From positions 1,608,406-1,656,338 of the forward strand of contig NW_022985556.1 of assembly GCF_010093815.1 (NCBI RefSeq): 47,933 bases of DNA. The letters are read 5' to 3'. This document shows positions 2,791-38,046 of this stretch, piece after piece. Positions within the stretch are counted from its first letter, which is position 1. The number at the start of each line of letters is the position of its first letter. Origin of the DNA: Pseudovirgaria hyperparasitica. Lineage: Eukaryota; Ascomycota; Dothideomycetes; Acrospermales; Acrospermaceae. The position numbers were made by a program, and so were the translations under genes. The notes beneath the pieces are model-generated. The model had not been told where the DNA came from, made no database searches, and saw only the letters and a program-made list of their open reading frames with translations.

Positions 2791-2919
2791 TAGAACTACT
2801 ACCCTTAGTAGTGTAGTAACCGTGTGAGAAACCGTGTAAAGAACGCCTAAAAGAAAGACCTTAATACGAATAAAATGCGCCCCTAGTAAACCTCTTAGCG
2901 CGGGTAAACCTTAGCCCGG

Positions 2920-2952
2920 ATTATTAGTTAAGGGTAGCCCTTAACTAATAAT
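2920..2952. repeat. 33-bp perfect palindrome, copy 1
   Basis: 15-bp arms (ATTATTAGTTAAGGG and its reverse complement) around a TAG loop. It lies between the extra ORF and the 3' LTR of element 1. The identical 33 bp recurs at 10222-10254, and near-identical copies lie in the LINE sequences. Confidence 0.85.
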
Positions 2953-2989
2953 TAGGTAGGTTTTTAGGCGCCTAATCTTAGTACTTAAG

Positions 2990-5900
2990 GTCGCGAGCCA
3001 GCTCCTAAAGAATCGTGTTCGCTTATCTTAGAGAGGTTAGATTTCTCCTTATCAGATAGTTTATTAGGCCTCTTCTATCTATAGAAGTTCTCTTTAATAT
3101 TATCTAGACCCGCGTCGGACTCGAATTTCTTAAAATTAATTAGCCGCTTAGCGGCGCGCGCCTCATTAAATTCCTTCTAGAACGACCTATCCCTATAGAC
3201 TAGCCTTTTCTACCTTACTATTTTCTTAAAGGTCTCTACGAATACCCTCGAGCCCTCCTTAAACCAGGCGTCTATCTTAGCTTTAAGTTATTAAGGACTT
3301 ACGTTAAGCTACGTAGCTACCTCTTCTTTTACCTCCTAGCTATTCTATCTTTTACGGCCGACTAATACGTTACTAACGGCGTTAAAACTCGGGAGTTAAA
3401 CTACGGCTAGGAAGGTAAAAGGAATCGCGCTATATTTATTAGAAAATCCTAACGGAGACATAGGTCCCGGAGTTAAATTCCTATAAGCTACTACGAGTTG
3501 TTCCCATGTACCTATTTTAGACACTTCTATTATTATGTGATTAGGGCTAATCGCGATATACTATAGAAGCATCATACATCTTCTACCCTTTACGGGACCC
3601 TAGGCGCCGTATATTATTAGTAGGCTAGAGATATGTACTTTAAGGGACTAGTAGGGGACTAGGACGAAGGGACTAAATCGTTTCTTATCGTCCGTATTAT
3701 AGATCTTATCATTAATAGCCGTAATTATACCGTTTCGATTGACCCCCTCGCGGAGCTTAGCCTTCGACTACTATTTATTTAAGAACTTATAGGAGCGGGG
3801 AACGATTATAGTATAGTTATTACTTCGTTCGTCGTCGAGACTAATACTCCCCTAGATCATGTTAAACCCGTATCTATCGCTAGGATCGAGGATTCGATTA
3901 ATGGCGTTATCGAGATACTTAAAACCCGTCTTATTACCCCTATCCTAGGACTTCGCATAGTACGGGTACGAGATTAGATAGTAGTTAAGATCGGGCCGAA
4001 GAGCGATATAGGTGAGCTAGTAAAGTAGGCATTACCTAATAAACTATTAGATATAGGAGTAGTATGTAGTTCGTAGCCAGCCGTAGTTCGATTTCTTATT
4101 AAACATGCGCTGGTGGTACTTATACATATTAAATTCATCCCTCGCGAGTTCTAGAATACTCTTATTAAGTATAGAGGTCGTCTTTTTAAGTGGCTCGAAG
4201 AGCCCTTTAATATTAATACTTCCGGTACGTTCCTACTCGTCGAAGAGTTATCTATCTATCCTACTATCCTCCTTCTAAATTATAAATGCGATACTAGTAA
4301 GGATGGTTTTAATATTAATAACTTGCTTCGGGGTCTCTAGGGCCTAGTAACAATAGACACCTAATACCTCTATCAGATAAGGTAGCCACGCGTACTTCGC
4401 GAACCAGATATAACAGTCCTTATAAACTTTAAGGGCCCCTACGTTATCTCTAAACTTATATACTATTTTAAGTCTCGCTACTAGGTTTAAGTAGGACACG
4501 CTAACGAGTATATTATTCTTTCTAGCCACGTCTTGGTAATGCTTATAGTAGACTTTATACGGAACAGCCATGTTACCTATCTACGCTTTCTAGCGCACTA
4601 GTAGGGCCATTCCCTTAATACTCGTGAAATTCTTCTTTAATAATATAGCTACCTTAAAAGTCTTCGTTACTAAAGGCGCGTATTAATACTTCTTAGGCTC
4701 GTCCTCTTCCTTAACCGATACTATTATCTTAGAGTACGAACTAAGAATAACCGGGGATTATCGTATAGGCGCCCCTAGTAATTACTAAGGGCCGGTAGAT
4801 AAGGCACGTCCGCGAGTAGGTTTTATCGGTATAGCCGTAATAGATACTAAAGAGGTTCTTACATGGCCCGGTAAGGGATATATACTAGTAGTAGTAGAAG
4901 GAATACTTACTTTAAACGGACGACTAGCTTTAAAGAGATAACGTGCTACTAAACTAGAAGGCGTGCTTCGTGGAGGGGACTTTACTATAGACGTTACCTA
5001 TACTAGTTTTAGTAACGGTAAGGTCTAAGGCGGAGGCAATATACTCATCTCTTTGATTTATAGGTAGTATTCGACGGGCCTATAAACCATTCTACTTATC
5101 TATAACTATTAACTAGCGGGGATAATAAGTCCTATCTTATTATAGAACGTTAGTTTATTTTATCGGCTAGGGTAGTTCGAGAGTTACTAGAGAGATAGAC
5201 TATCCTCGTTACTATCGCTAGCTAGGGTAGCATCGATATTAGAGCTCTAAAGATATACCTTAATTCCCCTTCCCTTCTATCCCTAGCCGATTCGGGACTA
5301 TAGAGATACGTTTAACTAGTTCCTCGCTCTCGCCTATATCCGCATTCGTAAGAGCGCTACTAGCTTTTCTATAAAGTTCTATGTTTACTAGAGCTATCCG
5401 AGGGCGGATTAGAGTAACTAGCTATTATTATTAGGGAGGTCTTTTCGCTAGTTTTATAGGATCGCATTTTTGGCTTTTAGGATATGGGAGTTAGTATCTC
5501 TTCTATAATAAATTATCTTATAGACTTCTTTCGGAATGGAGGAGTTAATCTTTACCTTACTATACCCTATTACGGCTCCTACTTCCTAGAAGAGGTTAAC
5601 TATACTACTTAAGAGCTATTCTATAAGGCTAGTAATGTGAAGGAGATTATTAAATATATCTAGAATATAGTCCTATCGCTCTTACGGGTCCTAGATAGCG
5701 ATGATTCGGTTAATAGTAGACTTATTTACTTCTATAGCTTCTATAGCCTATCCGTGCGGAGTAGTAGATGGCCTCGATACTATAATAGCTATTAATGGCC
5801 CTACTTTAGTACTTACGACTCTTAACTAGGACCGCGTCTATCTTATTAGTACTTAACGATCTTATAACTCTTTATAGGTAGGCGTTTTCTTTTTCGGCGG

Positions 5901-6080
5901 GGCTATTATTATTATTAGTTCTATTAGCGAGTTACGTTCTAAGAAGAGATAGTTAAGCGAGGCGGAAGTAGAGGAGGAGGTTTTATCGATTAAGGAGGTA
6001 TAGAGAGGTGTAAGAGGAAAGAGTTATATACTATCTTAAGTTCTCTTTTTATGCCTCCTCGAATGCCGGGTATATAGTAA
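2990..6080 (-). pseudogene. Extra ORF of element 1, downstream of integrase
   Basis: After the integrase, a minus-strand frame with few stops runs from about 4700 down to about 3000, and coding-like but more broken sequence extends back to about 6080. The clearest block (4571-4344) starts MAVPYKVYYKHYQDVARK. Further on are an acidic-aromatic block with GSISLDDE (~3830) and a late block with HISS...GPVKG...GTWEQL (~3650-3500). The spacing is loosely like uncharacterised fungal proteins with a 2-oxoglutarate-oxygenase-type fold, but no HxD...H triad can be shown, so no function is assigned. Standard gypsy elements end after integrase, so this is an additional or captured reading frame. It lies inside the LTRs and in the same orientation as pol, so it was probably mobilised with the element. 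A tail rich in Lys/Arg/Glu is seen at 3300-3000. Confidence 0.5.
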
Positions 6081-6106
6081 TTTTTATAAATGATTCTTGC
6101 TAACGG

Positions 6107-6232
6107 CTATAGGCCCGTATACGTGTCGAATCTATGAATGAATATATACTAGGTATATAGGAAATCTATGAATAAATGTGTCTACCGGGTATATAGCGGA
6201 ATCTATAAATAAATAGATACCGGGTATATTCT
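6107..6232. repeat. Tandem repeat, ~41-bp unit, RGGTATATA motif
   Basis: About three degenerate units, each containing ACCGGGTATATAG (or ACTAGGTATATAG) followed by AATCTATGAATGAAT or AATCTATAAATAAAT. A related array with the same core occurs at 29745-29870. It lies in the non-coding gap between pol and the extra ORF of element 1. Confidence 0.7.
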
Positions 6233-6462
6233 TATCCTTATAAGACTTCCTATAAGTATCTTTTTCTTCTATACCTCCTCCTTCTTTTCTTCCTTATTAG
6301 TTTCTAATAGGGCCCGTTCTATAGTAATAAAATAGGCCTTTAATAGGTGGGCTTCGATTACACGACCGGCTTTAATATATGGTAGATAGAATTCGCGTAA
6401 ACGCCATTATGTCTTCTTTCGAGCATTGCTTACTTTAATAATAAGTTTTATTATTTTATAGT

Positions 6463-6533
6463 AATGATAGGGTTTATCATCCTCTTTCGATGATAGAGTT
6501 CATCGTCCTTTTTCGATGATAGAGTTTATCGTT
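6463..6533. repeat. Triplicated ~26-bp hairpin repeat
   Basis: Three successive units of the form CGATGATAGAGTTCATCG spaced by pyrimidine-rich CCTCTTT or CCTTTTT. Each unit is a small inverted repeat (GATGA...TCATC). It lies in the spacer between the integrase C-terminus and the extra ORF of element 1. Confidence 0.7.
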
Positions 6534-6559
6534 ATAAGACTACTTTTATAAGTATCCCT

Positions 6560-9500
6560 TCCCTCCTTAAAAAAACTTCTATCCTCTAGAAGAAGATATT
6601 AATTCTAGGGAAACATAAATATTCTTCTCTATTAAAGTCTTGCGGAGTAGGAATTACTACTTCTACCCGGGTTCGTGTAGCGTCATCGAGGTGTTCCATA
6701 AGTTATTTATAATAGTTTTCCTTATCGCTACTCTCCTTATTTTCCTTGGTAATTCTTCTAATTAGTAGTCGCGAGGGCTCGTTATAACTCTTATTACTTA
6801 TATTTCTCATGAAATATTTCTTTAATCTATGGCTAGGAAACGTCCCTCTAAGCATGGCTCTATTAAGCTCCGCGAGCTTATAAGTGTAATTAAACACGGA
6901 CTAGATTCTATATGGCCCTCTCTAATACTACCTTAGCTTCCGCCCTATATCCTTCTATTACTACGAGTCGTATAGAAGGATAATTATATTAACTAGTAAC
7001 GACTCTTAACGAAGGTAATGGTTATTATTCTATGCCTCTCTCGATTCCTCACGCGTTCGTGTTACGTAGATATAGGCCTCCTTAAGATCCTCGGATCTTC
7101 TCTTAAGTTATCTAGCTTAAAGAGCGAGTAAGTCGGACGTTAATCGCACCTCGTCCTAAGGGAGTATTTAGAGCGACTCGAATTCGACTTTAATAGATAT
7201 AATTAGTTTATGGCCGAGCACGAGGTATATAGTACTATACCCTATACTAGTACGTGTCGTTATTCTATCTACCTAGACGACCGCATAGAGGTGGCCGGGC
7301 TAGTTCTTAAATCCGCTATTAGTTATCTTCGCGAGAGTATTAGCGAGTAGTATAAAACTTCTCTTAATAATTCTATTTACTCAGGGATTATACATAGACG
7401 TAACCTTCTAATAAATTCTATAGAGTCAGAGGAGCTCCTCTATAGCACCTATATTTTCTCTACTACCATTATAGGTGATTTTAGGAATGATTCTATATCT
7501 ATAGATTACGTTCTTAAAGAGGAACTTTACGATAACTATGGACGTGGCCGCCGTACATGCCTCCGCCTTAGTCTATCCGCTTAGCTATTCTTATATAGAT
7601 ACTACTTTACTATACCCTATAGAAGGTAGTAGCGTCGTTACGTCTAAGTATATTCTTTACTAAAGAATAGGCGTTATAACATGGTGGAGCCCTTTATTAA
7701 GACCTCTAAGGAGTTTACTTCGTCGTTAATATTTATTATAGGTTTTCACGTGCTATCGCACGTCTCTACGTATACCTACCTACTAATACTTATTCTTAAT
7801 TCTTCCGAGGGTCCCTTTACTACCTCTATAATCTATCTTATTATAAGTAGCGGTAATTATACACGCCCTAGTATTCGGATCCTTAATTACTCGTGTATGT
7901 TAGCGATACCTATCTTCTCTCTACTAGAGTATTTGGTCACGCATAAGGAACTTTAGATAGTCGGTTATAAAGGCCTTATACGCTCGGTCGGTTAGATTAG
8001 TTAGCCTCTTAAGTATAGTAAGGTATTTCGTAATCCTCTACTATTTATTACTATATTTATCTATTAAGGGAGACTTAATGGCGGTATAGTCGAGTGTCCC
8101 TATCGTGTAATCTCTTCTACTAACGGGCTTAATTAACGACGTCTCTAGCACGTCTATATATAGAGCTATGTCTATAAACTCGTCTAGGTTAAAGGTAGAG
8201 ATGTCTAGTGGTTCTTCTCCTTCGTATATCCGTAAGATACTATCGGTGACTACGTTACGCTTCCTAGGTACGTGCCTAACTATAAAGTTCTATAGCTAAA
8301 TCCACGCGAGCCACCTAGTAACGAGCGCCCCTAGTAAGTTAGTTACGGTATAGTTAATTTAAGCGACTAGAGTATTCGCGTCTATTTCTATAATAAAGTG
8401 CGTGCTATAGAGATATTACTAGAACTTCTATAACGCGTGGAGGAGGGCTCGGTACTCTAGCTTCACGGTATCGTAGTTTCTCTTAGCTTTTAACTATATT
8501 CCTCTATTATACCGCGATAGCTAATATTTATAATTCTCGTTCTCCTATATTAACGTAGCTCCCTACCCAACGTTACTAGAGTCCACTACTAGGATTATAT
8601 CTTCTGTATCTATCCCGTACCGTAACGTTGTTAGTGCGGGAGTAGTAGTTAGAGCTATCTTTAGCGCGTCTATCGAGGTCTACTCCTTAGCTATCTACTA
8701 CTAGGCCGATTTATTCTTTAATAGTATAAATAGCGGCGATGCGATAATAGCGTACCCGGGGATCTATATCCGGAAATATATATAAACGCTAAGGAAGGCT
8801 CGTATATTCGTCGTGTTTTTGTAGGGTTTCTAGTCCCTAATAGTAGTAACCTTTTTATTACTCGGTCGCCTCCCTTTAATGTCGTAGATATATCCTATAA
8901 CGTTAGCGGCTTTAACATACTACTAAGTCTTCTTACTACTTAGGGCGTATCCGGCGCGCTCTATATCCGCGAGAACCTTATCCACGTTAATTAAATATTC
9001 TAGGATATACCTACGAATTCTAGGTAGGGCCTCCTTAGAGTTATATTTTATTATAGGTCCTTTAATGCCTAAGTCATCTAGGAATAGTAGAGCCCTCTCC
9101 GGGATATGTTCTTATATAATAGTTAATATAATCCTAACGAACTAAGCTACTAAATTAGTAGCCCCTTAAGGTAATATTATCCCGTGTAGTAATCCTAGGG
9201 GCGTTATAAACCCCGTTAAGTCTTAGTAATGCTCTACTAATAGAATCTAATCATATTCTAAGAAGAAGTCGGTAAATGTTAAGACGGCTATCCCCGTAAA
9301 GTGCTCCGAGAACTCTTTATATAAGGGCGGCGTGGCCGTATCACGAATGGTAACTTAGTTAATTTCTATCGCCGAATTAATTAACCTATAATCTCGTTCC
9401 TTATTAGCTTCCTTCTTCTTTTCTATAAGAAAATAGACGTTTTAATAAGGACTACTATAGGGCTCGAGCCTTCCGCTATTAAGACGCTCTTTTAGAATCG

Positions 9501-10760
9501 TAAGTACCTTCCTATAAAGGGCTCTAGAAATGTTAAAGTTCTTGGTCTACTATACCTTATGTTCTACCGTTCGGATCTCCTACGGAGGTACCACCTCTTC
9601 GTTAAATTTACTAAGGTATAAGAATTTCTATGCTAGTACTTTCTCGCGATATAATAAGATTATATATAGTAACTTAAGTTCCGCGGGACGTAGCTCTATT
9701 CTAATCTTTAGCTAACTTATACGTAGAGGCGTTAGACGTGTTCCTAGCGGGATAGTTACCCTTCGAGGCTCTATTAGTCTATTAAACACGTTAAGGCCTA
9801 GATAGACGGCTAGAAGAAGTGTCTACCGTGCGATTACTTATTTACGCTAGTCTAGATACCCTAATGGATTTCTAGGAACCTTTCGGTGGGCTTCGGAGTT
9901 ATCCACGGGGTGTACTTTAACTCCCTTTCTTTTATATATAGTAGCTATACTAAATCCCTTTAATACCCCGGATGAATACCGTCTTTAGAGGCCGGTAGAG
10001 CCTACTATAAGCCGTTCTATTATCGTGCCTTATTTATATACGAAGGTAGCGTACCTTACCGCCATAACTAGGGCGGCTAAGTTATCTTTTCTCGATAACT
10101 AAGTAATATTTTTAGGCCGGATTTTCTCGGAAAGTAACTCTATATAACTTATTTCTATATCCATATAAAAATATAGCCTATCCCCTTTATTAGTGGGTTT
10201 ACCGGACCCTATTTAGTACGGATTATTAGTTAAGGGTAGCCCTTAACTAATAATCTAGCTTAACTCCGGCTTCCGGCGACATGCTCCGCTATATAGTTAG
10301 TCTCTAGCCACGGAGTTACCCTCCTTCTCTAAGACTAGAATATACTTATCCGGACTAGTTTCGAAGGTTATACATTCTTATCTATATACGGAGTAGACTA
10401 TTAAGAGTACTTACCTAGAGGCTAACCTCTATACCGTAAGTAAGGCCTATCTAGTATATAGCTCCCCTAGGATAAGGTTATAATTAAGTTCTCTATATAT
10501 AAATATTAAAGTGGCCGTAACGATCCGACCTATATAGATAGGGTATTACTATACTATTCCCACGAATAGAGTACTATACTAAGTAGCGCTAACTAAACTC
10601 GAGTTCTTTATATATAGTAGAAGCGAAGATATCGCTAGCCTAAGACGCCTCGTAGCATCTAGTTAAATACTATTTATCTATGCGCCACTATCGAATAGTA
10701 CTATACTAGTCGCCCTTTTAGGACTAACTTCTATAGGGTATCTTAGACACTTAGCTACTA
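6560..10760 (-). pseudogene. pol: Decayed pol of element 1: PR-RT-RNase H-integrase
   Basis: Read on the minus strand through RIP stops. Protease: LFDSGA (complement of 10681-10692), with catalytic Asp retained. RT: FTDFFLEYD near 9290-9260, then IPERALLFLDDLGIKGP at ~9110-9060, so both catalytic Asp codons survive. RNase H: DIILVVDSSN (~8601-8575), later FIIEIDANTL and HVPRKRNVVTDS (~8280-8250). Integrase: a zinc-binding region around VGIRRDVR..V..YN (~7790-7740), then LDVTTLLPSIGYSKVVSI..LSGWTKAEA (~7640-7570, stops read through). A C-terminal part still open at 6897-6703 includes LRGTFPSHRLKKYF. The order is standard Ty3/gypsy. The enzyme copies itself into the genome via an RNA intermediate. 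Many in-frame stops make it non-functional. The palindrome at 10222-10254 lies between protease and RT and carries stops in every frame. Confidence 0.85.
10222..10254. repeat. 33-bp perfect palindrome, copy 2
   Basis: Identical over 33 bp to 2920-2952 (15-bp arms, TAG loop). It lies within the pol region of element 1, between the protease motif and RT, and has stop codons in all three frames. That suggests an insertion rather than native coding sequence. Confidence 0.85.
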
Positions 10761-10779
10761 GCCTTACTATCTCTTCCTT

Positions 10780-13300
10780 AAGCTAATTAATATCTTATTA
10801 CGTAATAGCTATCCCCGTAGTATAGAGGGGTACTAATACGTTAAGTTTATTTATCTCGGGAGCTATTATATGGTCGTTTCTTCCTTTCTTCTCGGCTCTC
10901 TCTTCTTAAGCCTTATAGACCTCTCTAGCTATAAAGTCGGGAGCGCCCTTCTTAAATACCGCACGACGTAAGTCGCTATTAAGGCTTAATAGTTCGCTAA
11001 TAGTAATGTTCATGGTTATCTCTAGAACGCGCACCAGCCATACTTCGCTAGCTTCTATGCTTAGCCGCTATCCTTCGCGTAGATAGTTATTAAGCTTAAC
11101 GCCTTAGATACGTGCCTTTTAACTAGAATTTAGGCTATCCCCTTTATCTATCTTATCCTCTAGCGCCGTTAGCTCTTATTTAGACGTTCCCTAGTCGCTA
11201 CTCTTCTCGCCGTCCTCCTATTCCTTAATAATCCTTATATACTACCCTTCATGCATTCTACGGAGACGGGCGATCTTTCTTTTCTTAGTACGATTAGGTA
11301 TACTCTTTATAATCCCCCTTCTAGATATTACGAGCATAGCGGGCTCTTCTAGAGCCATCTCCTCGTGGATATATCTATTACTAGCTACGTCGAAGCGTTC
11401 ATAGAATTCTATATATCTATCTTTCTTACTCTTGGGCGACGTGACTTCTTCTTCTAAATCGCTATCCGCTAAGGCCTAGTAGGGACCCTTTATAGATTTT
11501 ATACTAATACTATATACTAGCACTCCCTATAAAGCGTTAATATTTACTACGGACGTAGAAACCTTCACTCCTCCTCCGTACTAGCTTAGGCCGTTTTAAA
11601 CCGTTACTACGTAGTTCCGGATAGCTTATAGAGTAGCTTATGGCCCTACCGAGGAGGGTAGTAATAGAATTTCTTCTCCGTTCGTCCTAAAACGCCCTTA
11701 GAATACTCGCACCCTATTAATATTTAGTAATCCGTCTCTAATGTATCCTACTATCTCTAGACATCTATATATTAGGTAATCTCCTCTATATATAATATAT
11801 ATAATTAGTCTTCGAGGTCTATTCTAGGCTATAACGCCTTCTTAGGAGTCTCGGGTAGAGACGTATTCTCTATTCTATATATAATTCTATAGATAAACTT
11901 ACGTTAGTTCTATAGATATACCTTATACTTAGAGATATACTAAAAGATTTAGCCTTCGCGCCTACTAGTTAATAATGGCCGAAAGTAGCTTAGGTTCGTA
12001 CTTCTTAAGGGATGGGAATAAGAGATTAGAGGTAAAGTAGAACTTCATCTTAATTAACGTGAGGTCTAGTTTACTAAATCTCTCTACCATCTTATTAAAC
12101 TTATCCGATTCTAGCGCGACGTGTACTACGACTAGAGAGGGGTGGTTAAATTCATTAGTTCTTCTTTCTTCATGTGACTACTCTTCTAAGCCGGTCTTCT
12201 TACTCTCTATCTTTAATTTATGGTATATGGCTATAGCTAGCTCTTATACGGCTAAGTACTTATTAATACGAGCTAGTTTCTTAAGTGCTCTAGCCTTTCG
12301 TGATACGAAGCTATAGATAATTACCTAGTCGTAACTATGTACTTCTATCGTAAGTTAACATTTCTCTATAGCCCGAGCCTTAAGACTATTAGGTAGCCCT
12401 TCTAGGAAGAGCTCTATTCGCGAATACGAGCTTAGGCTTCCTTTAGCCGTAAGTTTCTCCGTGATAATATAATACTAGGAGTAGTATATGGGGAGAGAGT
12501 AGGATGGGTCTACTTTAACCATTTCCACGTATTTTCGGATAAAGTAGATGGTACCTTCCTTAAGGGCAGAGTTAAATGGAGAGAATTCCTTTAATAATTC
12601 TTCACGTAGCGTGGCCTACTACTATTTCTAAAACCTACTTATTCCTTTAATAGTAGGATAGAGATAGTCCTTATAGTATGACGGTAGGGAGGTTATCTTC
12701 TTATTAGGCGGAACTTTATAGTTTATATATATGTCCTTATACTTCTAAAGGAAGGCCGTAATGTTTATTCCTTTAAAGCGCTTAGGGGCTAGAATAGATA
12801 GAGGTACTATCCTTCCTTATCGCGTAAATGCTATGAAGAAGTTAAGTATCTCTCTACGAGTTACTAGGTTATTATTTTAAGCTCCTATTATACTATTACT
12901 AGTAGTAGGTATACTAGTAGAGACGCTAGGGGTAAGGTTATTAGTTAAGGGATTACCTTAACTAAAGGTTAGCCTAATGCGTCTACCTATAACACCTATC
13001 ATCCCTTCTCCATGTTAACTAATCCCTTTATAAGGTAAACTATTACTATCGTCTTTATCGATATAAGGTTCACGGTATCCTACTTATATTATTATCTTCG
13101 TGTAAGGCGTTCCTAAAGTAGTATACTCGTATAGCCGTGTTTATAAATAACAGCTATAGTAGTACTAAATAGATTATATTTATCGTTTTTAAACTCTTCT
13201 TTACTACTTCATCTAGCCCTATTTTATATCCTATTCCCCTAAGACATTTTCGAGTCGTGCTATCACCCGTGTTAGCATGCGTATACTTTTTACAGCTACT
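10780..13300 (-). pseudogene. gag: Gag region of element 1 (decayed)
   Basis: This minus-strand stretch precedes the protease and must hold the structural gag gene by position. I see hydrophilic, Lys/Glu-rich coding-like frames with many stops, but no zinc knuckle I would defend. A 10-bp-arm relative of the palindrome lies at 12941-12965. The call rests mainly on gene order. The first few hundred bases after the 5' LTR are probably untranslated leader. Short plus-strand open stretches here are antisense shadows. Confidence 0.45.
12941..12965. repeat. Degenerate palindrome, copy 3
   Basis: Arms TTAGTTAAGG and CCTTAACTAA around GATTA, preceded by TTA as in the longer copies. It is a weaker member of the same palindrome family. 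Confidence 0.55.
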
Positions 13301-13469
13301 TTTAAGAGGCTAGCCCCTAGCGACTCCGGACTCCCTATTTTCCGGACTCGTAGCTTCGATCTAGTAAATCTAGACTACCTTATTAGGCACGCTATATACT
13401 TCCCCTAAGCTAGTTTCGGAGTCCTAATCTCCCCCTATAAGTTCGTAGTCCGGGTATAACCTCTAAAAT

Positions 13470-13790
13470 TATGGTAAGCTATCGCCACGAGTGTCCCTTT
13501 TATAAATGGCTATGTTCCTAGTATAGTAGTCGCGACGAACTCATAAGTATCTCTCCTAGGTATTATAAGTTCTCTTTGAACGCACGACTTCTTATTAGTT
13601 CTCTTTTATAATAGGACGGGTCTATATAATACTCTTAATNNNNNNNNNNNNNNNNNNNNNNNNNNNNNNNNNNNNNNNNNNNNNNNNNNAGTAGAATGAC
13701 CAAGGAAAACGCCCTCCTTAAATATATAATGAAGCCATGTAATCGAGCTAGGGACACATACATATAGGGCTGTAGGAGCGGCCTTCCACA
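13470..13790 (-). repeat. 5' LTR of element 1 (with assembly gap)
   Basis: Starts TATGGTAAGCT (RIP form of TGTGGTGAGCC) and ends CCTTCCACA. It aligns to 2402-2773 on both sides of the N run. The aligned ends imply that about 101 bp of LTR are represented by only 50 Ns. Confidence 0.9.
13640..13689. other. 50-N assembly gap inside the 5' LTR
   Basis: Fifty consecutive N. By alignment to the other LTR the missing segment corresponds to 2572-2672, so the gap length is a placeholder and about 51 bp too short. Confidence 0.9.
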
Positions 13791-13794
13791 CTAT

Positions 13795-14430
13795 ATTAGT
13801 AAGCTTAATGTTTCTATACTTAGTAAGTATTTATACTACCTACTAGTAATATAATTCACTAATATATATAGGTACTACGTCTATATATATAAGCGAAAAT
13901 ATTAGTATATTTACTAGCCGGCCTAAGTACGTCCGAATTAAATAAGGTATATAGATTATTTAGATTAACTAAGTTAGATTCTCCGTGTATTCTACTAGTA
14001 TTAGCTTCGTAGGTCTATAAAGGATAAGATCTAATAGTTACTAGTTTTATAGTATTAGTAGACTAATACTTACGTAAGAAGACGTGGCCGTAGATAAGTA
14101 TAAGATATTATTACTATAGATAATATTAGCCTATAGTATATATATATACTTTAATTTTAGACTATTTAGAGGTTAAGGCTAGACTTACCGCGTTAGGTAA
14201 GGCAATCGAAAGTATAAGAATATAAGCCTTAGACCTAGGAAAAGAAGATATAGCTATAGTAGAGATAGCTATATCTAATATACTAGTAATAGGCGTACGC
14301 TTTAATTCTATAGAAATATAGTAGTATAGAAGTAAGTAAGGTAGTTAGTTAATTAGCTTCTAAGAGACTAGATAGTATAGTAGTATAAATATAAACCGCT
14401 ATTTACTCGTAATTATATATCTATATATAT
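13795..14430 (+). pseudogene. Decayed SNF2-like ATPase, C-terminal part
   Basis: Removing element 1 and one CTAT target copy joins 2401 to 13795 in a single reading frame. The right-hand frame includes VRFSVYSTSISFVGL at 13973-14017, which resembles helicase motif V of SNF2 C-terminal domains (LLST..gg.GLNL). Aromatic and Arg-rich segments follow, where the Q..gR.hRiGQ motif would be expected, but I cannot recognise that motif. Stops occur throughout. The call is supported by frame continuity with the N-terminal half more than by this piece alone. The true end is uncertain. Confidence 0.4.
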
Positions 14431-15030: not shown

Positions 15031-15189
15031 TTCTATTTATACTAAACGTTCTATTTATACTAAACGTTCTATTTATACTAAACGTCCTATTTATACTAAA
15101 TATACTAGTTATACTAAATATTCTATTTATACTAAATATACTAGTTATACTAAACGTCCCGTTTATACTAAACGTACTATTTATACTAA
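15031..15189. repeat. 17-bp tandem array (about 9 copies)
   Basis: Unit TTCTATTTATACTAAACG and variants (ATATACTAGTTATACTAAA). The copies are directly adjacent with no unique spacers, so this is a minisatellite and not a CRISPR array. Confidence 0.85.
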
Positions 15190-17347: not shown

Positions 17348-17562
17348 TATTAAGGGTAGACCCTAGGTATACTTAACGCTAGCGTACTACGCCTACGCTA
17401 CTACTCTCTCCTCGCTTAATAAAGCTAAGTAAGCCCCTTTTCAATAGCGTACTCCGTCCCTTATCTTAAGGAAGCTAAGTAGACTCTAGCTTCCTCCCTT
17501 ATTAAACTTACTATATTCTATAAATACTCTTATATCTATATATATATTGTATTTCCGTAATA
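17348..17562 (+). repeat. 5' LTR of element 2
   Basis: TATTAAGGGTAGACC at the start, CCGTAATA at the end: RIP forms of TGTT...AACA. It is the same length as the right LTR, and the two differ by roughly 18 transitions by eye. An inner AGGGTAGACCCT palindrome lies at the left end. Confidence 0.92.
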
Positions 17563-17600
17563 TTAAGTTTAATTCTATTTTACTCTCTAAGTACTTTACT

Positions 17601-18890: not shown

Positions 18891-18899
18891 CGGACGTAG

Positions 18900-24378: not shown

Positions 24379-24396
24379 AGTAGAGAGAGGGGGTAA
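24379..24396 (+). other. Polypurine tract of element 2
   Basis: AGTAGAGAGAGGGGGTAA immediately upstream of the right LTR; primes plus-strand synthesis and confirms plus orientation. Confidence 0.8.
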
Positions 24397-24611
24397 TATT
24401 AAGGGTAGACCCTAGGTATACTTAACGCTAGCGTACTACGTCTACGCTACTACTCTCTCCTCGCTTAATAAAGCTAAGCGAGCTCCTTTTTAATAGTATA
24501 CTCTATCCCTTATCTTAAGGAAGCTAAGTAGACTTTGGCTTCCTCCCTTATTAAACTTACTATATTCTATAAATACTCTTACGTCTATGTATACGTCGTA
24601 TTCCCGTAATA
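24397..24611 (+). repeat. 3' LTR of element 2
   Basis: 215 bp, same ends as the left LTR, followed by the GCTAG target duplication at 24612-24616. Confidence 0.92.
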
Positions 24612-24616
24612 GCTAG

Positions 24617-25439: not shown

Positions 25440-25872
25440 ATTAGAAGTCTAAGTCTATAGAATTAGATACTTCTACTACTAATACGGCCCTATATAAAGA
25501 TACTACTATATTCCCTAATTATATTTTAGACCTAGAATCTATAGAGGGCGTTACTAGTAGCTATAGTACTAATTTAGTATATTAGTCTAATATATATAGT
25601 AGAAATACTATAACTATAGTAATAAGAGTATCTAGTACTATATATTTAATAAAAACGTTTAAAGAAGAGAGTAGTATATATATTCTAGTAGACTAGAGTA
25701 GACGTAATAATCTATCTAATATAAGTATATATAGTCTATTATTATAGTAGTAACTAATTTAGTAGACCCGATTCGGTTAATTTAATAGTAAGTTTATAGA
25801 GCGCCTTATAATATAGATAAATTGGTTTAGTATTTTAAATATAGCGTATAATAAATTAACTACTATCCTTAA
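25440..25872 (+). pseudogene. Plavaka-like transposase relic, N-terminal segment
   Basis: A plus-strand frame (mod 3 = 2) runs to the insertion point of the LINE fragment, including TALYKDTTIFPNYILDLESIE near 25484-25546 and INWFSILNIAYNKL just before 25872. With the 763-bp insert and one 17-bp target copy removed, this frame continues directly into 26653 and onward. The segment itself has no diagnostic motif; its identity comes from that continuity. Confidence 0.5.
25856..25872. repeat. 17-bp target-site duplication of truncated LINE, left
   Basis: TTAACTACTATCCTTAA, identical to 26636-26652. Length and exactness are typical of target-primed reverse transcription. Confidence 0.9.
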
Positions 25873-26635
25873 TAATAATAATAATATTATATAACTAGAT
25901 AGAGTAGTACTCTATAGGCCTATGCCTTCTCTAGTCTAAGCTACTATATAAGAAGAAACCCTATAGAAAAAAACTTCCTTATATCTATAACTATATCTCG
26001 TTAAACCTCTATTTTATCTTAAGTATATAGCTATAGAGTACGCCTATTAGTCTATAGCCTATATTACTATTATTTTACCCTTAGATAGTACGTATAGATA
26101 TAGAGGTTATTAGTTAAGGGCTACCCTTAACTAATAATCGGGGTTCTTCCGGGGTTCTTCTAGTATATATTAGGTTACTACTAGCGTATATCGGGTCTCT
26201 TCTAGTATATATTTCTAGGTCTACTAGTACTAGAGGAGTAGTAGATATATAAGTATCTATTAGGAGACATTCTTAGGGTACTTATTAAGCTATTATATAA
26301 TATCTAAAGTCTTTATAATATAGATAAGCTATTACCGTTATATATAGAGGTTAGGGTATATAGCTAGATAGTAGCGTATTATACCTCTCTAGCCGTATAC
26401 CTTATACTATAGGGAGGTATTAGGAACGCCTCTCTTATAGAGGTAGTATAGAAGTTCTATAGTATCTATTCGGGCTTAGATAAGTATAGATACTTAGGCT
26501 TTCGTTAGCCCTTTATATATCTATTTACTTAGTTCCTTCTATAGTCCTTAAATCTACTCTAGATATCTATCCTACTAGAAGGTCTAGTAGATATAGAGTA
26601 TCTCTTTCTACTTGTCTTAAGTCTACGACTATATG
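25873..26635 (-). mobile_element. 5'-truncated LINE copy (763 bp)
   Basis: Reverse complement of 35190-~35945, that is the end of ORF2 plus the 3' UTR of the LINE at 30.9-36.0 kb. On the minus strand it ends in a (TTA)n tail, directly against the left 17-bp target duplication. Truncation at the 5' end, a simple-sequence tail and flanking duplications are hallmarks of LINE insertion. It contains the palindrome at 26107-26137. Confidence 0.9.
26107..26137. repeat. 31-bp palindrome, copy 4 (in truncated LINE)
   Basis: 14-bp arms TTATTAGTTAAGGG / CCCTTAACTAATAA around CTA. It is at the same place in the LINE 3' UTR as copy 6. Confidence 0.85.
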
Positions 26636-26652
26636 TTAACTACTATCCTTAA
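26636..26652. repeat. 17-bp target-site duplication of truncated LINE, right
   Basis: TTAACTACTATCCTTAA, exact match to 25856-25872. Confidence 0.9.
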
Positions 26653-29490
26653 ATAGACTTCCGCTATACCCTCTAATCTTTTTATACTAAAATCTAATAT
26701 TATATATAAGTAGTTATTATACTACCCTAAAGGGATACCGTATAAAAGTTAGTAGTATAGCTATAATATATTTAGTACTACTATAGTTAAATGCTAGTAT
26801 AGAAATCCACTTATATTAGTAGAATTCCTTCTTAGATACTAACTATTTACTAGTAAGCTCGTATTTAAGCTAGTGTAATAATTTACTAGTTTAGACGACT
26901 AGATATATAGTAAAGTCTATATAGTAGATAGTTAGTAGAATATATATACTACTATTCCGGACGGTATCTTTATCGTCTCTATTATTTTATCTTTAGATAA
27001 GATAAACCTTACTAACTATAGTAGTAATAGAGTAGTATAGCTAGTCTATCTATCTATTTATAATCTACTACTAAACGTCTACTTATCTAGAAGTCTACTA
27101 TTATTTCTACTACTTACTCTATTACTAGTAGTTAAGCTAGAAATAGTAGCGAATTACTTTATATTCTATTAGATTATAAGTAAAGTTCTAGTCTATATAT
27201 CCGCCTACGATAGAGTCGTTAACTATACTAATTATTATATAGTATTATAGGCTATATAGAGTACTAGAGTATTAGTATTATATACTAATAGTAGCTTACG
27301 TATATACTATCCGTGTTTAGCTTTATATATTATAGATTTTCTAGAGTAGGTACTTATTATAGGTATATTCTATTAGTATATATATCTAATATATATAGTC
27401 TCTAGTAATAGACAATAGTATCTACAAGAAGCTATTACTAGTATATAGAAGTTCTATATATACTTATTATTATAGAAATAGATTTACTATATATATTATA
27501 AGTTAATAACTAATAGCTATAGTAGTAAGTATACTAGTAGTAAGATAGATAATAGAATAAGTATACCTAGTATCTTATTATTTTCGTCAATATCTTTCAC
27601 GCTAGTAGTATAGAGCTATTATATTTACTAATTAGTTAAGAGTTAGTATTCTAGTAGATAGATAGAGCTATTAGATAATTTCGTCTAGTTACTTACTAGA
27701 GTTAATATATACTACGCGGTTACTCTAGATATTCTATATTAACTATATAAGGGTATATTAGAATATATATTTAATTAGATAGTCTTATATATTATTAATT
27801 AAGAGCGTACGGGATATAGATTAAAGGGTATATTTACTAGTATACCCTCTATAGAATAAGTAAAGAAGGTAATTAATAAGTAATTTACGTCTATTAGGGT
27901 ATTTAGTTATTATAATCTACTTATATATATAACTTTAGTAATATAATAGATAGGGGTAATGTTTAAGTATATACTAGTAGTATTTATAGTTACGTTTAAA
28001 CCGCTCCTATATTATAATTAATACTTTCTAAGTATAGTATAGACGGTTATTAATATATATATATTAGCGGCGTACTATATATATAATATATAGATACTAG
28101 TATACTTAGAGGAGACTATATAATACTTAGACGATCTAAAATACTAGTTTATACTATATTATAGAGATAAATTAGAGGATAATTATTTTAACTTTCTAAA
28201 GTTCTATATATTATTGTACCTAGTTAATACTATTAAGTACTATAGTTTATTATATCTAATATTAGCGGAGCTACTAGAGTAATCTTATATTATAGTAAAG
28301 AAATTATATTAAGGTTTAAATAAGAGGGAGATATTTCTATAGTAGATACTAGTAGTAGATATACGTATAACTAATACTAAAATCTCTAGTAGTATAGAGG
28401 TAGTAGCTAGTAATAGTATATTAGTAGCCTCTAGCCTAGAGTAGCTTAATAATATATATAAGCTAGTTAGCTAGCGGCGTATTTTCAAGGAGCTATACTA
28501 GAGTAAATATATAATCTATATCTTATAGAGCTATAGACTATCTATATCCTACTAGACTACTATTAGTAACCTCTATAATATATATAGTAGTAGTTTTATA
28601 TTACTTAATATGGTTACCCCCTTTATATATAACTATTATAATTAGCTTATTAGAGATAATATATTAAGAGAAGTAAATATTAAATATATTAAAAAGAACC
28701 CTTCGTAGGTACGGGTTCTTTCTATCTATATATATAAGACTATATACGTACTAATATAACTAGATAGAGATATATCTATAGAGGCCTTCGATCTAGTTTA
28801 GATAAGATATATCTATAACTAGTAAAAGAGTAGTAAGGCTAGAGAGAATTATATATTAGTATAGGAGTTTAATAAGGGTAGTAACTACCTTAATAGAAAG
28901 CGGGTTAGTAAAGTCCGTATATTTCTAGAGGTATATAATATAGAGAGTATCGATATAACCAGTAGTATAGCGGCGTGATTCCTAGGTATATTAGTTAAAC
29001 TACTTAATAACTTAGGTAGAGGTAATATTAATACTATTAGTAGCCTTATACTATTATATATAGCGGGTTAAAGGTTAGATAATAAGACTTATATAATAGA
29101 TAGGTTCCGTATCTACGAGCTAGAGTATATTCTACACCCTATATAGATTATATTATATTAGTTAGTTACGGATAGTTTATTCTAGTTAAATATATATAGT
29201 AATTAGGGAATCTATAATAAGGTATATAATCTAGACTTCTAGGCTATAAATAGATAGAATATAACTATAGCGTTAAAATATAGACGCGTGTTATAAGTCT
29301 ATCGCTATCTACTACTATCTACTATAGTATACTAGTATATACTATTATATAGCGGAAGTTATAGTTTATATATAGTAGTACTTAATAGTTATATTCTATA
29401 CTAGAATATCTCTAAGGAATAATTATAGTTTATTATAATTAGTTCTATAAAAGACTTATATTTAATAACTATCTATAATTTTAGCTAAGG
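26653..29490 (+). pseudogene. Plavaka-like (CACTA/KDZ-related) transposase relic, main part
   Basis: Same frame (mod 3 = 2) as 25440-25872. At 26945-27110 it reads TTIPDGIFIVSIILSLDKINLTNY, then VYLSIYNL and later LLLVVKLE, in the order of the Plavaka transposase core as I recall it (IPIILSSDKTQLT, VYLTIGN, Y.P..KLE). At 27263-27370, RVLVLYTNSSLRIYYPCLALYI followed by DFLE.VL fits the following ADG..R..YP.laaYiaDyPEQ.L block. Coding-like sequence continues to ~29490, including RFRIYELEYILHPI at 29110. This family cuts and pastes DNA. Stops from RIP plus one TGA at 28976 inactivate it. No terminal inverted repeats were found. The family call is by remembered motif pattern only. Confidence 0.6.
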
Positions 29491-30900
29491 AGTATCTAGG
29501 GATATACCTCCTTATTATCTAATAATTACTAGCTAGTATAAAAACTCTACGTCTCTAAAAAGGGTATATAGAACTTAAAGAATTCTTATTTATAGATAGA
29601 ACTAGATCTAGATAGTATTAATCTAAAATAGATAGATTATATATATTAATACTCTAAAATCCGAATTATATCTCTAGATCTACTAGACCTAGCTCGTATC
29701 TAATTCTAATATTTTCGTTATTCGCGTTTATATCTTATTAGATACTAGGTATATAATAAGTCTATAGTTAAGTAAGTATCGGGTATATAACGAGTCTATT
29801 AATAAATAAATACCGGGTATATAACGAGTCTATATAAATAAGTATAAATAAGTATATACTAGGTATATAACGCTCTTACTAGAGAAACGTCTTCCTTAAG
29901 TATCTCCCTCTTCTAATATTTCTTCTTCTCTTTCTTTATTCTTTCTCTAGTCTTATAAGTATAGTTAGACTTATATTACTATATTATTAATATATATATT
30001 CTTATATAGACCGTTAGAAACTATAGTAACTAGATATACGCTCTTATAATAGATAAATATACTATACTAATACGTTATATTATTCGTGTTTAATATAAGA
30101 GTTCGCTACTACGATCGTTTATTATTATACTTATCTATCTCTTCTTAATAATAGTACTAATTAATAGTAATCTATTATAGAGATAATAGTTAGTATTATA
30201 TACTTCTCTTAAATATTTATATATTAATATTATATAAGTATATACTTCGCGGAGGTCCTCTATTCTTTTCTTAAGCTATCTAGACTATTCTCTAATTACT
30301 AAAAAACTCTTATATCTAACTATTTCTACTATTTATTCCTTAGTTCTACTTATTAGACTTCGAATAATAGTAAACTATAATAGATTAGTAGTTATCTATA
30401 TTTTATATATACTAAGTTAGTATACCTAAATATAACGGATAATAGTATATTTATAATAGTATATACTAGATCTTATAGTATTTCTCTTTAGTGGTAGATC
30501 TATATAGTTATAAAGACGGTCTACTATTCTATTATATCTATATACTACGCTACTCTTTTATTATATATAGATAGTATTACTAGAGTAGAGCTATCGCCTA
30601 GTAAACTTAATATTATATATAGAGTATTATATATTTAACGTTGTTATTTCACGTACCCTATATTAGTACGGAGTTAAAAACTTCTTATACTCTAATAGAC
30701 TAAACTAGTTAATTCGGGGTAAAATAGTAATTTACATATATTAAACGATAGAGTATACCGAGTATAATAACCTCCAATATACGTACGTATATATAGCGTA
30801 TAATATACGATAATACTAATATATAGAGATACTATATATATATACTCGAAGACTCTTTAATAATATAAGTATAGACTATATCTAATAAACGTCGATATAC
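29491..30900. other. Unassigned AT-rich region with tandem array
   Basis: 29745-29870 holds about three units with ACCGGGTATATAACGAGTCTAT followed by ATAAATAAATA, related to the array at 6107-6232. It is followed, as at 6240, by pyrimidine-rich CTCCCTCTTCTAATATTTCTTC-like sequence. The rest has no nameable gene. The right end should include the 5' leader of the LINE, whose exact start I cannot place. Confidence 0.5.
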
Positions 30901-30910
30901 CGACCCCCTT

Positions 30911-30941
30911 TTATTAGTTAAGGGCTACCCTTAACTAATAA
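30911..30941. repeat. 31-bp palindrome, copy 5 (just before LINE ORF1)
   Basis: Perfect 14-bp arms with a CTA loop, ending 2 bp before the ORF1 start codon (ACCATGG). Confidence 0.85.
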
Positions 30942-30943
30942 CC

Positions 30944-32250
30944 ATGGCGGCCTTAGGTATTATAATACCCTAGTATACGCCGGATATACCCCTACTAGTA
31001 TAGTAGAAACGGCTATATAGCGATATTAATATAGATAGCTAGATACCTATCTAAAATATAGGAACTAACTAAGGGTACGAAGCGCTATAGATAACCTAGA
31101 CTAAGGGGACCCCGAGAGGGGAGACCCTCCTAGATAAAATTAAATACTAGATAATATATATAGAGAGGGACGCCGAGAAGGGAAAGAAGACTCTCCTTTA
31201 TATATTCTAGAACCTTATCTAGAATCTAAGAGAAATTATAGAGGAAGAAAGGAAGTTACTACGAGAGGAACCTAGTAGTAGACTTAACTAAATAGAAGTT
31301 AGCCTACGAAGAATCTAGAAAGAGCTATCCTAAGGTAAGCGCCCTAATACGTAGGCTTAGATTATAGTAATACCCGGAGCTACCGTACTAAGAACTACTA
31401 GAACTATAGATAGAGTATATAGTATACGTATTATAATCTAGGATAAGAATATACTAGTATAGATCTAATAGATATCTCTAAAGGAAATTATAAATAAGAT
31501 TAATAAATAGAAAGGAATATAGTTAAGCGTCGTAGCTACTAAAGTTACGCTAGGTAGGGTAGTACTTACTACTATAACGAATACTACGTAGTAAAACATC
31601 TTACGAGATCCGAACACGATAGATAGTATCTTCTCTAGCGCGTCTATTAGGGTAGCTATATATCTAATTATAGTATATATAGTATCTATACGGGGATAGG
31701 CTATCGGAGCGGAGAATATTACGTGTATAGAATAATCTAACATATAAAAATACCTAGGGATTAAGATTATAAAGCGTAATAGAAGAATCTATAGGCGATT
31801 AAGACGACGGTAAAAAAACACTCTACTATAATTATAGAGCTCTAAGACCCCGCTCTTATATAATATATTATATAGAAGGGATTCCTAGTAGAAGGAGAGC
31901 TCCTTATAGCCGAGCCATAGAATAGGGTATAGGTAATAATATAGTACTTTAACTATTAAGGGTATAGATATACTATATAAAGATACTTATAGAAGACTAA
32001 GTGCGGATAGTACTATAGGGACCACGCCACCTAGAAGTACTCTTATAAACTATAAGAAGACGGACTAAGAAATAGGGATATAGTATAGTATTTAAACTAT
32101 AACGGGAAATATCTATTATAGTCGTTAACGTATATAAAACGTAAATAGATTATAGAATATATTTATATAATAAAAGCGAGAGACGTAAGATAGTTATAGA
32201 ATATAATATCTACTACGGGCTCTTTCTTTATAATACCTCTAACCTCCCCT
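30944..32250 (+). pseudogene. LINE ORF1 (gag-like, decayed)
   Basis: Starts ATG in a strong context (ACCATGG) and reads MAALGII. then Glu/Lys-rich helices such as IIEEERKLLREEPSSRLN (~31236). The frame is mod 3 = 2 at the start but mod 3 = 1 from about 31810 (KGFLVEGELLIAEP at 31876), so at least one indel lies between. Zinc knuckles at 31945-32055 appear as Tyr-substituted C-x2-C-x4-H-x4-C followed by KCG..Y..DHAT.K, the tandem arrangement of Tad-like ORF1. The product binds element RNA. The end is approximate. Confidence 0.7.
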
Positions 32251-32349
32251 CTAGAAGGTAGTTAGATAGAATAGTAGACTATTCTAAAGACGATAGAACG
32301 ACTAAAAGATATAGTTAAAGCCGCTACCGCGCGAGGATAGTCGCGTCTC

Positions 32350-35300
32350 TAAGGAATAAGTATATAGATATATATACTCCCTAGTATCTAATAAGGGACT
32401 AGAATATACTCTAAATTATATAGATAAATATATAATATAAAAGAGAGAACTAGGCGACGCTCCTCGAAGAGACTAGTACTATAATACTTACTATCTAGGA
32501 ACCCTATAAATACTACTAGATGAGTAAACTAACCATACACCCCGGATACTATACTATATACCCTCTAGAACTAGAAAGACGAGTTCTCTTCTATATTTAT
32601 AGGTTAATACTACTCTTATTATAGTTATATACCAAGCGTAATAACCTTAGGATAATACTATACCTATAAATAGATATAGGCCCCCTATATATATATAATA
32701 TATATAACTAATAATATATATTTATACTAGATAAGATACTTAAGGGTACTACGGAACTAGGGTAATACATCCTTCTAGAAGACTTTAACCTCTACTACTA
32801 ATAGTAGGGAGGCCTAGCCGTAGTTAGAGAAGAACTTAGAGTAAGGGAACTACGTACCCGCTACCACGACTTTCTATATCTACTTATATCTATAGAATAA
32901 GTTATATAGAAAAAATATAAATAGAATAAAGATAGGTCTACGCTTAATCTTATCTTCGCTACGGAGTATATTAGTTACTAGATCTAATACTACTACCTAG
33001 GCTAGGTATAGACGGATTCCGACTATAAATATATAGAAACTATAATAAATATATATACCCCGAATAAATAACGGGGATAATAGATATAGAAGAATACTAA
33101 CTAGAAAAAGTATCTAAAGGACCTGGAATCGGCGATTCTAGATCCCTCTATAGTCGATATATCTAATAATCTAGCTATAGACTAGGCCGTATAGATACTC
33201 CTATAAATATACTAGAATATAAGAAATAAATATATACTATACTAAATATACTAGCCCCTAGAAGTAAAGAGAATTCCTTAAGTATAGGAAAGTAGATAAG
33301 ACGCCTAAAGACTATATATATATATATACTATACGAGAATACCTAAGTCGTAGAAAGAATAGAAGAAAGCGATATAATAATATAATAAAGTCCTCCGTAA
33401 TAAAAGGCGTAAATAGTAGTATATAATTACTAGTTAATAGATATGATACGTAATAGGGCTATAGTATATAGTAAAATAGGCTAAGGGCATAGATACTCCG
33501 ATACCCCTACTACTTATATCTCCCCTAATATATTAGGGGAGAATATACTCTATAAGTCTTAAGAAAACTAAGGCCCTATAGAAGACTATATTCCCTCTCC
33601 TAGAACTAGTAGATCTATTAGATATTTATAGCGCTAAATATCTATACGCGGTAGATATCTCTAAAGAAGTTACGGAGAAGGATATACTTAATATTATTAA
33701 GATACTTCTAAATAATAAAGTATCTAGACTAGATGGAATTCTAAATTAATACCTAAAAAGTACTATAAAAGTAACCCTACCGCTTATTACTCGTATATTC
33801 TAAGCATGCGTTACGTAGGGATACTACCCCTAGTACTTCCGAGTTGCCTATACTATTATACTTCTAAAACTAGAAAAGAGCTCTAACTTTCTAAAGGGAT
33901 AGAGACTAATTACTCTTCTCTTCTATCTAGATAAGATACTAGAGACTATAATAGCGAAGAAGATAAGTACCGTAGTATAGAAATATAATCTTCTCCCTCT
34001 AAACTAGAAGGTAAAGGTAGATAGCTCCCTAATAATAGCTATCTAATATATTATTAAAGTCGTCTAGGCCGTATAGAAATAGGGACGGGTAGTATCGCTT
34101 CTCTCCCTTAATATGGCCGGAGCGTTTAATAAGGTAAACTATATAAGACTTATTTATAACCTCCGGATAAGACGAATACTAGAATAGATTATACGCTTTA
34201 TATAGTTATTCCTTATAGAAAGAATAACTTAGGTATATATCCCTAGATACTAGAGCGAATATAAAGAGATGGTATACGGTATCCTATAAGGGAGTACTAT
34301 CTCTCCAATCCTATTCCTCTTCTTTATAGTAGACCTTCTTTAAGAAATAAAGTATATAGAGATAGTTAGATACGCTAATAATATATACCTTCTAGCTATT
34401 AATAATAATACTAACTAAACGTATAGATAACTAGAATAGAACTATAAGAGGTACCTCTAGTAGATAAAACGCCACGGAGTAAAGTTCGCCCTAGAGAAAT
34501 ACTAGCTTATATACTTTATTAATTATTAAGAAAAATAGATAACTAGGGAAGGCGAACGACGCCTCTAAATCGACGTATTTAATAAACTACTAGTATAAAG
34601 TATACGCGCGCTTAGAGTTATACTAGATAGTAAGCTTAAATAGGGACTATAAGTAGTATACGCTATCTCTAGGGCCCTCCGGGTAGAAGCTACTATATAA
34701 TAGATTATAGTCTCTATGTAGGGAACCGCCTAGGATAAGGTACGCTAGCTATATATATCTATAGTATAACCCGCCTTTATATATAGACACGAGTACTAGT
34801 ATACGGCCCTTATATAGACTAGGCGAATAAAGCTCGAATCTATATAGAACCGTATACTCCGTCTTATATTAGATATATATAAAGCTACTAATATGGTACT
34901 ACTACGACGCGAGATAGATATTATAAGTATATATAACTTCTACTAGATATAGAGGGTGGTATACTTTACTAAATAATAAGTATAGAAATATATAGGAAAC
35001 GTAGAATATACTTTTACCACGCTATATATATGAATTAGTATATATTACCATATACTCCTATATATAGACCGGAATTAAATATAGTATAGGTACTTAATAG
35101 AAGCCGACTCTAGCTAAGTAGTATAAGAAGTCTAAGATGCCCTAGACACTCTTCTAGACTAGTAGAGCCTTTAAGAACTCGTGAAAAATATATAGTCGTA
35201 GACTTAAGATAAGTAGAAAGAGACACTCTATATCTACTAGACCTCCTAGTAGAATAGGTACCTAGAGTAGATTCGAGGGCCATAGAAGAAACTAAGTAAA

Positions 35301-35560
35301 TAGATATATAAAGGGCTAACGAAAGCCTAAGTATCTATACTTATCTAAGCCCGAACGGGCGCTATAGGACTTCTATACTATATCTATAAGAGAGGCGTTC
35401 CTAATACCTCCCTATAGTATAAGGCGTATAGCTAGAGAGGTATAATACGCTACTATCTAGCTATATACCCTAACCTCTATATATAACGGTAATAGCTTAT
35501 CCACGTTATAAAGACTTTAGATATTATATAATAGCTTAATAAGTACCCTAAGGACGTCTC
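32350..35560 (+). pseudogene. LINE ORF2: endonuclease and reverse transcriptase (decayed)
   Basis: Single frame (mod 3 = 0) over the landmarks. AP-like endonuclease: ILTI.EPYKYY at 32484 with catalytic Glu, EDFNLYY at 32778 (GDFN motif), TDSDYKY at 33012 (SDH motif with His to Tyr). RT: the catalytic block at 34365-34400 reads VRYANNIYLLA, so both YADD aspartates are Asn. Next come Arg/His-rich RHGVKFALEKY.LIYFI near 34470-34520. A C-terminal region up to about 35560 includes EAFLIPPYSIRRIAREV. The enzyme nicks target DNA and copies element RNA there. Both activities must be dead. Confidence 0.82.
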
Positions 35561-35686
35561 CTAATAGATACTTATATATCTACTACTTCTCTAGTACTAG
35601 TAGACCTAGAAATATATACCGGAAGAGACCCGGTATACGCCGGTAGTAACCCGATATATACTAGAAGAACTCTAGGAGAACCCTAA

Positions 35687-35717
35687 TTATTAGTCGAGAG
35701 TAGCCCTTAACTAATAA
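35687..35717. repeat. 31-bp palindrome, copy 6 (LINE 3' UTR)
   Basis: TTATTAGTCGAGAG TAG CCCTTAACTAATAA. The left arm differs from the others at 3 sites, two of which (CG against TA) fit RIP of the other copies. Confidence 0.8.
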
Positions 35718-38012: not shown

Positions 38013-38046
38013 TTCGAATTACTACCTATATAGTACTATAGTTAAG

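Follow-up and report, generated by a model that had tools for sequence, protein, structure and literature searches.

How does one 31-bp palindrome come to lie in both a LINE and a gypsy-type LTR retrotransposon within a single stretch of fungal DNA? An earlier note on this window (the whole 47,933-nucleotide stretch, C8:1608406-1656338) of Pseudovirgaria hyperparasitica, which we take to be probably a parasite of rusts, had described near-perfect hairpins in the two elements and had suggested a tiny mobile or recombination unit. Searching the window and the genome (35.03 Mb in 59 contigs), we find the hairpins to be real, their earlier coordinates correct to 1-3 bp, and the palindrome indeed common to two unrelated retroelements. 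It now seems to be inherited within both elements; the reading that we prefer, with a probability of about 0.42, is that an old discrete palindrome was copied into both retroelement lineages and has since been a passenger only.

The palindrome and its two carriers

Six copies lie in the window, at 2921, 10223, 12938, 26107, 30911 and 35687, in the 31-bp form TTATTAGTTAAGGG-nnn-CCCTTAACTAATAA, and they are distributed over the following features.

2400..13796, minus strand: gypsy-type LTR element, RIPped (LTR self-match; RNase H Pfam matches)
about 13796-13468 (5') and about 2777-2400 (3'), minus strand: LTRs of the gypsy element (self-match)
12938..12968, minus strand: Gyp3, degenerate palindrome with an AATC-type centre near the gag start; right arm intact in element sense
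10223..10253, minus strand: Gyp2, perfect palindrome in the gag-pol region; pairing runs a few bases past the 31-mer
2921..2951, minus strand: Gyp1, perfect palindrome 143 bp before the 3' LTR, towards the 3' end of the last coding-like stretch
26107..26137, minus strand: LINE3 palindrome in the 3' end of a second LINE (25870-26637; self-match)
30683..35960 (ends approximate), plus strand: full-length LINE with RT and (TTA)n tail, RIPped (pre-insertion sites; RVT_1)
30911..30941, plus strand: LINE5, perfect palindrome whose end lies 2 bp upstream of the ATG at 30944
35687..35717, plus strand: LINE3, palindrome whose left arm is mutated and which contains an in-frame TAG for ORF2 (35691-35693)

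The 14-bp arms are perfect at 2921, 10223, 26107 and 30911, while the copy at 35687 has three mismatches, all in the left arm, and that at 12938 has four relative to the 31-mer. Exact TTATTAGTTAAGGG half-sites stand at 2921, 2938(-), 10223, 10240(-), 12938, 26107, 26124(-), 30911, 30928(-) and 35704(-). Pairing in little-mutated copies reaches 15-bp arms around one central A/T, and the rare little-RIPped copies read TTATTAGTCAAGGG-CWG-CCCTTGACTAATAA. Across the genome, a search returned 426 perfect 31-mers against none for the reversed control, with 505 forward and 502 reverse exact 14-mer halves against 0 and 1; exact palindrome forms are far beyond chance.

The first carrier was assigned as a LINE from its RT, 3' tail, target duplication and pre-insertion site. 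An RVT_1 match was found in the window copy (Pfam) and a weak Exo_endo_phos_2 match in a sister copy (E = 0.0001; 22.6 bits, below the Pfam cut-off of 27.4), insertion is shown by pre-insertion sites in C1c and C1d, and three other copies have target duplications of about 11-15 bp (by eye), and the copies end in a (TTA)n tail. At the protein level it has relatives in, among others, Podosphaera aphanis and Talaromyces stipitatus ('transposon I factor'), and a homologue search with the 5' part of the LINE found none. The third codon position is where transversions between LINE subfamilies (703 sites) are most frequent, and the codon phase from about 31276 onward places the ATG at 30944 in the ORF1 frame, with little transversion periodicity in the first 300 bases past that ATG; the coordinates and this phase uphold the claim that the 30911 copy sits 2 bp before the LINE start codon. 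At the other end of the LINE, ORF2 ends at the LINE3 TAG in the little-RIPped copies L033 and L035, and in copies a1 and a5 the ORF2 frame reaches the TAA of the surviving LINE3 right arm. The earlier note rightly placed 26107 and 35687 in LINE sequence, but the self-match 35187-35954 / 25870-26637 makes them one LINE position seen in two opposite copies. The LINE 3' regions of L033, L035 and L038 (on C7, C26 and C39) are nearly without RIP (CpA ratio 0.94-1.04) in a family that is otherwise heavily RIPped. For three little-RIPped LINE copies the LINE5 site was not found at the expected distance, where L044 and L047 lack LINE similarity and L045 lies inside the LINE.

The second carrier is of Ty3/gypsy type by its LTRs and RT-linked RNase H, the latter at about 8685-8301 on the minus strand with PF17917 and PF17919 above cut-off; the searched pieces of the window copy gave no RT or integrase Pfam match. 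Because the RNase H lies on the minus strand, 12938 is the 5' site and 2921 the 3' site. Four further copies are about 92% identical, and since the five (one of them incomplete) differ at only 17 transversion sites, we read them as a young burst that was then RIPped. The least-stop frame is identical on both sides of 10223, and the frame at Gyp1 is ambiguous, since about 70 bp upstream the copies differ by 1 bp. An extra coding-like stretch of the element lies between pol and the 3' LTR (window about 6000-2970, minus strand). Elsewhere in the window, the LTR elements at 17345-24611 and 37787-45168 have no palindrome match at up to eight mismatches, and self-comparison reveals a tandem-repeat array at 45811-46264.

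Positions, flanks and free copies

All 27 perfect copies whose flanks were read (27 of 426) sit at four fixed positions, two in the LINE and two in the gypsy-type element, and the remaining copies were judged by counts of their left-flank letters. A YV left flank occurs in one of the 426, itself a LINE3 copy; VT stands before 72 matches, 63 of them with AT, and the two AT-flanked copies that were opened (L024, L032) both belong to the LINE5 position in a single subfamily. Across the window and 200 kb of contig C1, the flanks sort into five classes: LINE5, LINE3, Gyp1, Gyp2 and Gyp3, the last of them degenerate. Gyp3 is represented by 47 copies genome-wide, 45 with an identical centre and two with one letter different, all of them degenerate by construction of the pattern, which used a looser core without the outer letters on one side. 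Two further matches in the 200 kb of C1, L026:307 and L023:5812 (7 and 8 mismatches), fall outside the five classes, pair poorly and were treated as unrelated; their repeat is also present at about 28437-29188 of the window.

The flanks of the LINE and gypsy sites differ directly outside the palindrome, and all 40 of the non-simple 16-mers that the window's LINE and gypsy element have in common lie inside it. Within the LINE, all four sampled subfamilies carry palindrome sequence at both LINE5 and LINE3, except that at LINE3 half of it is missing from a1 and a5, while a2 stops short of the site, so that the palindrome would predate the subfamily split.

Searches for empty sites used exact flank patterns with RIP letters. 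Genome-wide they returned no empty or shortened Gyp1 site and no such Gyp2 site, and the LINE3 pattern gave nine matches, all with one half-palindrome, two of which are the aligned a1 and a5 copies. The LINE5 pattern gave three matches against one in the control, which is chance level; the one opened, C51:13344, proved to be host-like DNA and was rejected as an empty site. The comparison of occupied and empty sites that had been proposed thus yielded no clear empty site at any of these four positions, and exact-flank patterns found no LINE or gypsy copy with both flanks and no palindrome. Direct repeats at the printed flanks were looked for by eye, with no empty site for comparison, and none was noticed.

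Outside the two elements we found one related stand-alone near-palindrome, at C19:255595, which spans 47 bp of host DNA and, as DNA, has 23-bp arms with two mismatches; its RNA fold is predicted at -28.5 kcal/mol. It lies between the 3' ends of two convergent frames: one is a gene with Myb matches and weak chromo and Reb1-type ones, and the other presumably encodes a protein of the DNL zinc-finger type. BLAST with the surrounding DNA (L034, L041, L042; C19:253000-258500) found nothing alike in the window or in 200 kb of C1. Inverted repeats of the form TCAAGG-n(1-7)-CCTTGA occur at 42 places genome-wide against 7 for the reversed control; nine of the 42 have the palindrome's spacing, and the seven of these that were opened are six element-derived copies and the C19 locus. 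An exact 8-bp core picks out six sites, namely two LINE3 copies (C7, C26), a divergent LINE3-like copy (C45), a Gyp3 copy (C8), a chimera (C47) and the host locus (C19). These searches for host copies required exact cores, which decayed copies would escape. In all, five positions in two elements and one host locus were observed.

Two junction loci belong beside these. In the chimera (L036, C47:11013), a 20-bp LINE5-like flank and the palindrome are followed by the truncated RT of another LTR element, which starts at or within the last 7 bases of the palindrome; the junction is bracketed by an 8-bp inverted repeat, CTGCGCCG/CGGCGCAG. C36:16731 (L046) was rejected as an independent site, being a LINE 3' end truncated inside the palindrome and fused to a coding sequence that we take, from its translated letters, to be HET-like. 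No match to a known RNA family was found in L034, L035, L036 or L039, and the un-RIPped core has no occurrence in viral contigs.

RIP, reading frames and conservation

The window is strongly RIPped, with CpA observed/expected ratios down to 0.05. TCAAGGG survives in one arm or more at 14 sites of the RIP-degenerate palindrome, at four of them in both arms, and the centre of little-RIPped palindromes is C(A/T)G, with an AAT type in Gyp3 and at C19. Little-RIPped palindromes have one open frame per strand, and the six-frame stop is therefore a product of RIP: the earlier description of stops in all frames is right for the palindrome after RIP and wrong for its native form, which is open on each strand. 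RIP can in this way produce a false six-frame stop signal, a warning for similar readings elsewhere. The suggestion that symmetric RIP helps to keep the arms matched fits the data, in that TCAA becomes TTAA in both arms. Special protection of the palindrome centre from RIP was considered and rejected, as the centre is un-RIPped in 15 of 50 perfect copies among the matches listed and other RIP-variable sites are similar.

Counting transversion and indel differences in the arms over six LINE subfamily pairs gives 6 for LINE5 and 44 for LINE3 (mean 13.6), and 42 of the 44 come from the a1 deletion. As a fraction of LINE windows only, those doing as well or better amount to 0.261 for LINE5 and 0.977 for LINE3, the latter figure driven by that same deletion; compared with 5' UTR windows alone, 0.064 of 204 do as well as LINE5. 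Between subfamilies y and c1 both LINE5 and LINE3 are unchanged, as are 15% of all windows. Neither LINE site shows a measurable gain in conservation over the remaining LINE; identity among copies was accordingly rejected as proof of selection, and alone it neither shows nor excludes it.

Explanations for the sharing

Copying of one ancestral sequence would explain the sharing. An old discrete unit of about 31 bp, TTATTAGTCAAGGG-C(A/T)G-CCCTTGACTAATAA, may have entered two retroelement lineages by copying, at several positions that tolerated it, namely the edges of UTRs, the ends of ORFs and the gag-pol region, presumably during reverse transcription or break repair, for which a strong hairpin would be a plausible template-switch or break point. 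Afterwards the palindrome would have spread solely as a passenger of element transposition, and after amplification RIP would have turned TCAA into TTAA on both strands, keeping the symmetry and creating stops in all frames. We favor this old copying because of the fixed positions, the lack of empty sites, the differing flanks and the restriction of shared 16-mers to the palindrome, and further because conservation of the LINE sites is at background level and one stand-alone palindrome exists in host DNA. Several observations count against it. Five positions in two elements against one found elsewhere in a 35-Mb genome is far from random copying, and no occupied/empty pair was seen with exact-flank patterns. 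The palindrome also tends to lie near the edges of coding units (before LINE ORF1, over the ORF2 stop, at the gypsy gag start, in the gag-pol region and at the 3' end), and this tendency, together with the place of LINE5 near the conserved end of the 5' UTR windows, could point to a function. A further reading, which we regard as rather improbable, is that a gene-less 31-bp palindrome hitch-hikes on unrelated retroelements, its hairpin RNA or DNA being captured by reverse transcription or break repair; it would then accumulate at tolerant retroelement sites and enter host DNA rarely.

The main rival is a shared cis-acting site that both elements use, whether as the target of a dimeric protein (of host or element) or as an RNA hairpin, and that was either gained by convergence or kept by selection. 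Such a candidate function, proposed from sequence features, is a serious possibility although an unlikely one, and over it we weakly prefer old copying as the account of the sharing. A cis site would suit the two-fold symmetry around one base pair, the several copies per element near coding edges, the strong predicted RNA hairpin (-18.1 kcal/mol, where shuffles average -4.4), the excess of TCAAGG/CCTTGA places over control and the position of LINE5 already described; the arms also contain TTAGTCA/TGACTAA, which we take to resemble AP-1/Yap-type sites. It sits less well with the absence of excess conservation relative to the LINE as a whole, with the half-palindrome form of LINE3 in nine copies and with the degenerate state of Gyp3 in the window copy, three others and L039. 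Of the 42 inverted-repeat places only nine have the palindrome's spacing, and the seven opened are element-derived apart from C19.

Next, and in our view improbable, is that sequence passed directly from one element to the other through recombination or gene conversion within nested, repeat-rich islands, no separate unit being involved. The LINE and the gypsy element are neighbours in the window, the chimera joins a LINE5-like flank and the palindrome to the RT of another LTR element, and a 46-bp stretch matches at 93% between Gyp1 and Gyp2 and takes in about 10 bp of left flank, all of which are consistent with exchange. Against it, none of the 40 shared 16-mers lies outside the palindrome, and LINE and gypsy sites have different flanks.

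Present-day mobility of a tiny palindromic element is very unlikely. The stand-alone C19 copy speaks for it, but we saw no clear empty sites, no population of singletons and no direct repeat at the flanks, and the copies read, with their fixed positions and almost no free copies, do not support a currently mobile or recombining unit. The earlier note had itself named as the counter-observation a palindrome confined to fixed positions in the two elements and native to their intact relatives, and the first part of this is largely the situation in this genome, the related C19 copy excepted; its mobile unit survives mainly as a past event. Chance or RIP-made convergence can be set aside, for although RIP makes AT-rich sequences alike and the window has a mild excess of the 14-mer at up to three mismatches (35 matches, where shuffles average 26.1 and 5 of 100 reach 35), the same palindrome is present in little-RIPped copies and the genome-wide counts of perfect copies refute it.

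That a LINE and an LTR element both carry one perfect 31-bp palindrome provides a clean marker of sequence exchange, or of shared control, between unrelated classes. If it was captured by reverse transcription, it would show how non-coding hairpins can spread without a transposase; if it is a binding site, two retroelement classes would be using one and the same factor.

A literature search, in sources seen as excerpts, found no description of this palindrome, and the nearest known systems resemble it in part. Sites for host proteins are present in retroelements such as Drosophila gypsy (Su(Hw)) and the S. pombe Tf elements (Sap1), and these are likewise recurrent cis sites in a retroelement; there the binding proteins are known, whereas the fungal case is one perfect palindrome in two element classes. 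Rickettsia palindromic elements are bacterial and longer than 31 bp. They are similar in being short palindromic units at many places with unrelated flanks, some within coding frames, but the fungal unit is almost confined to two retroelements and is known from fixed positions rather than insertion events. Mitochondrial double-hairpin or repetitive hairpin-forming elements, as far as the excerpts describe them, are also short hairpin repeats dispersed at unrelated sites; they differ in being mitochondrial, while the fungal palindrome is nuclear, forms a single hairpin and holds fixed retroelement positions. Finally, the mitochondrial genes of Nematomorpha are described, in the excerpt available, as containing coding palindromes of up to 284 bp (PMC6649704), which share with ours the overlap of palindromes with coding sequence, yet those are mitochondrial and can be far longer, whereas the fungal case is one 31-bp sequence repeated.
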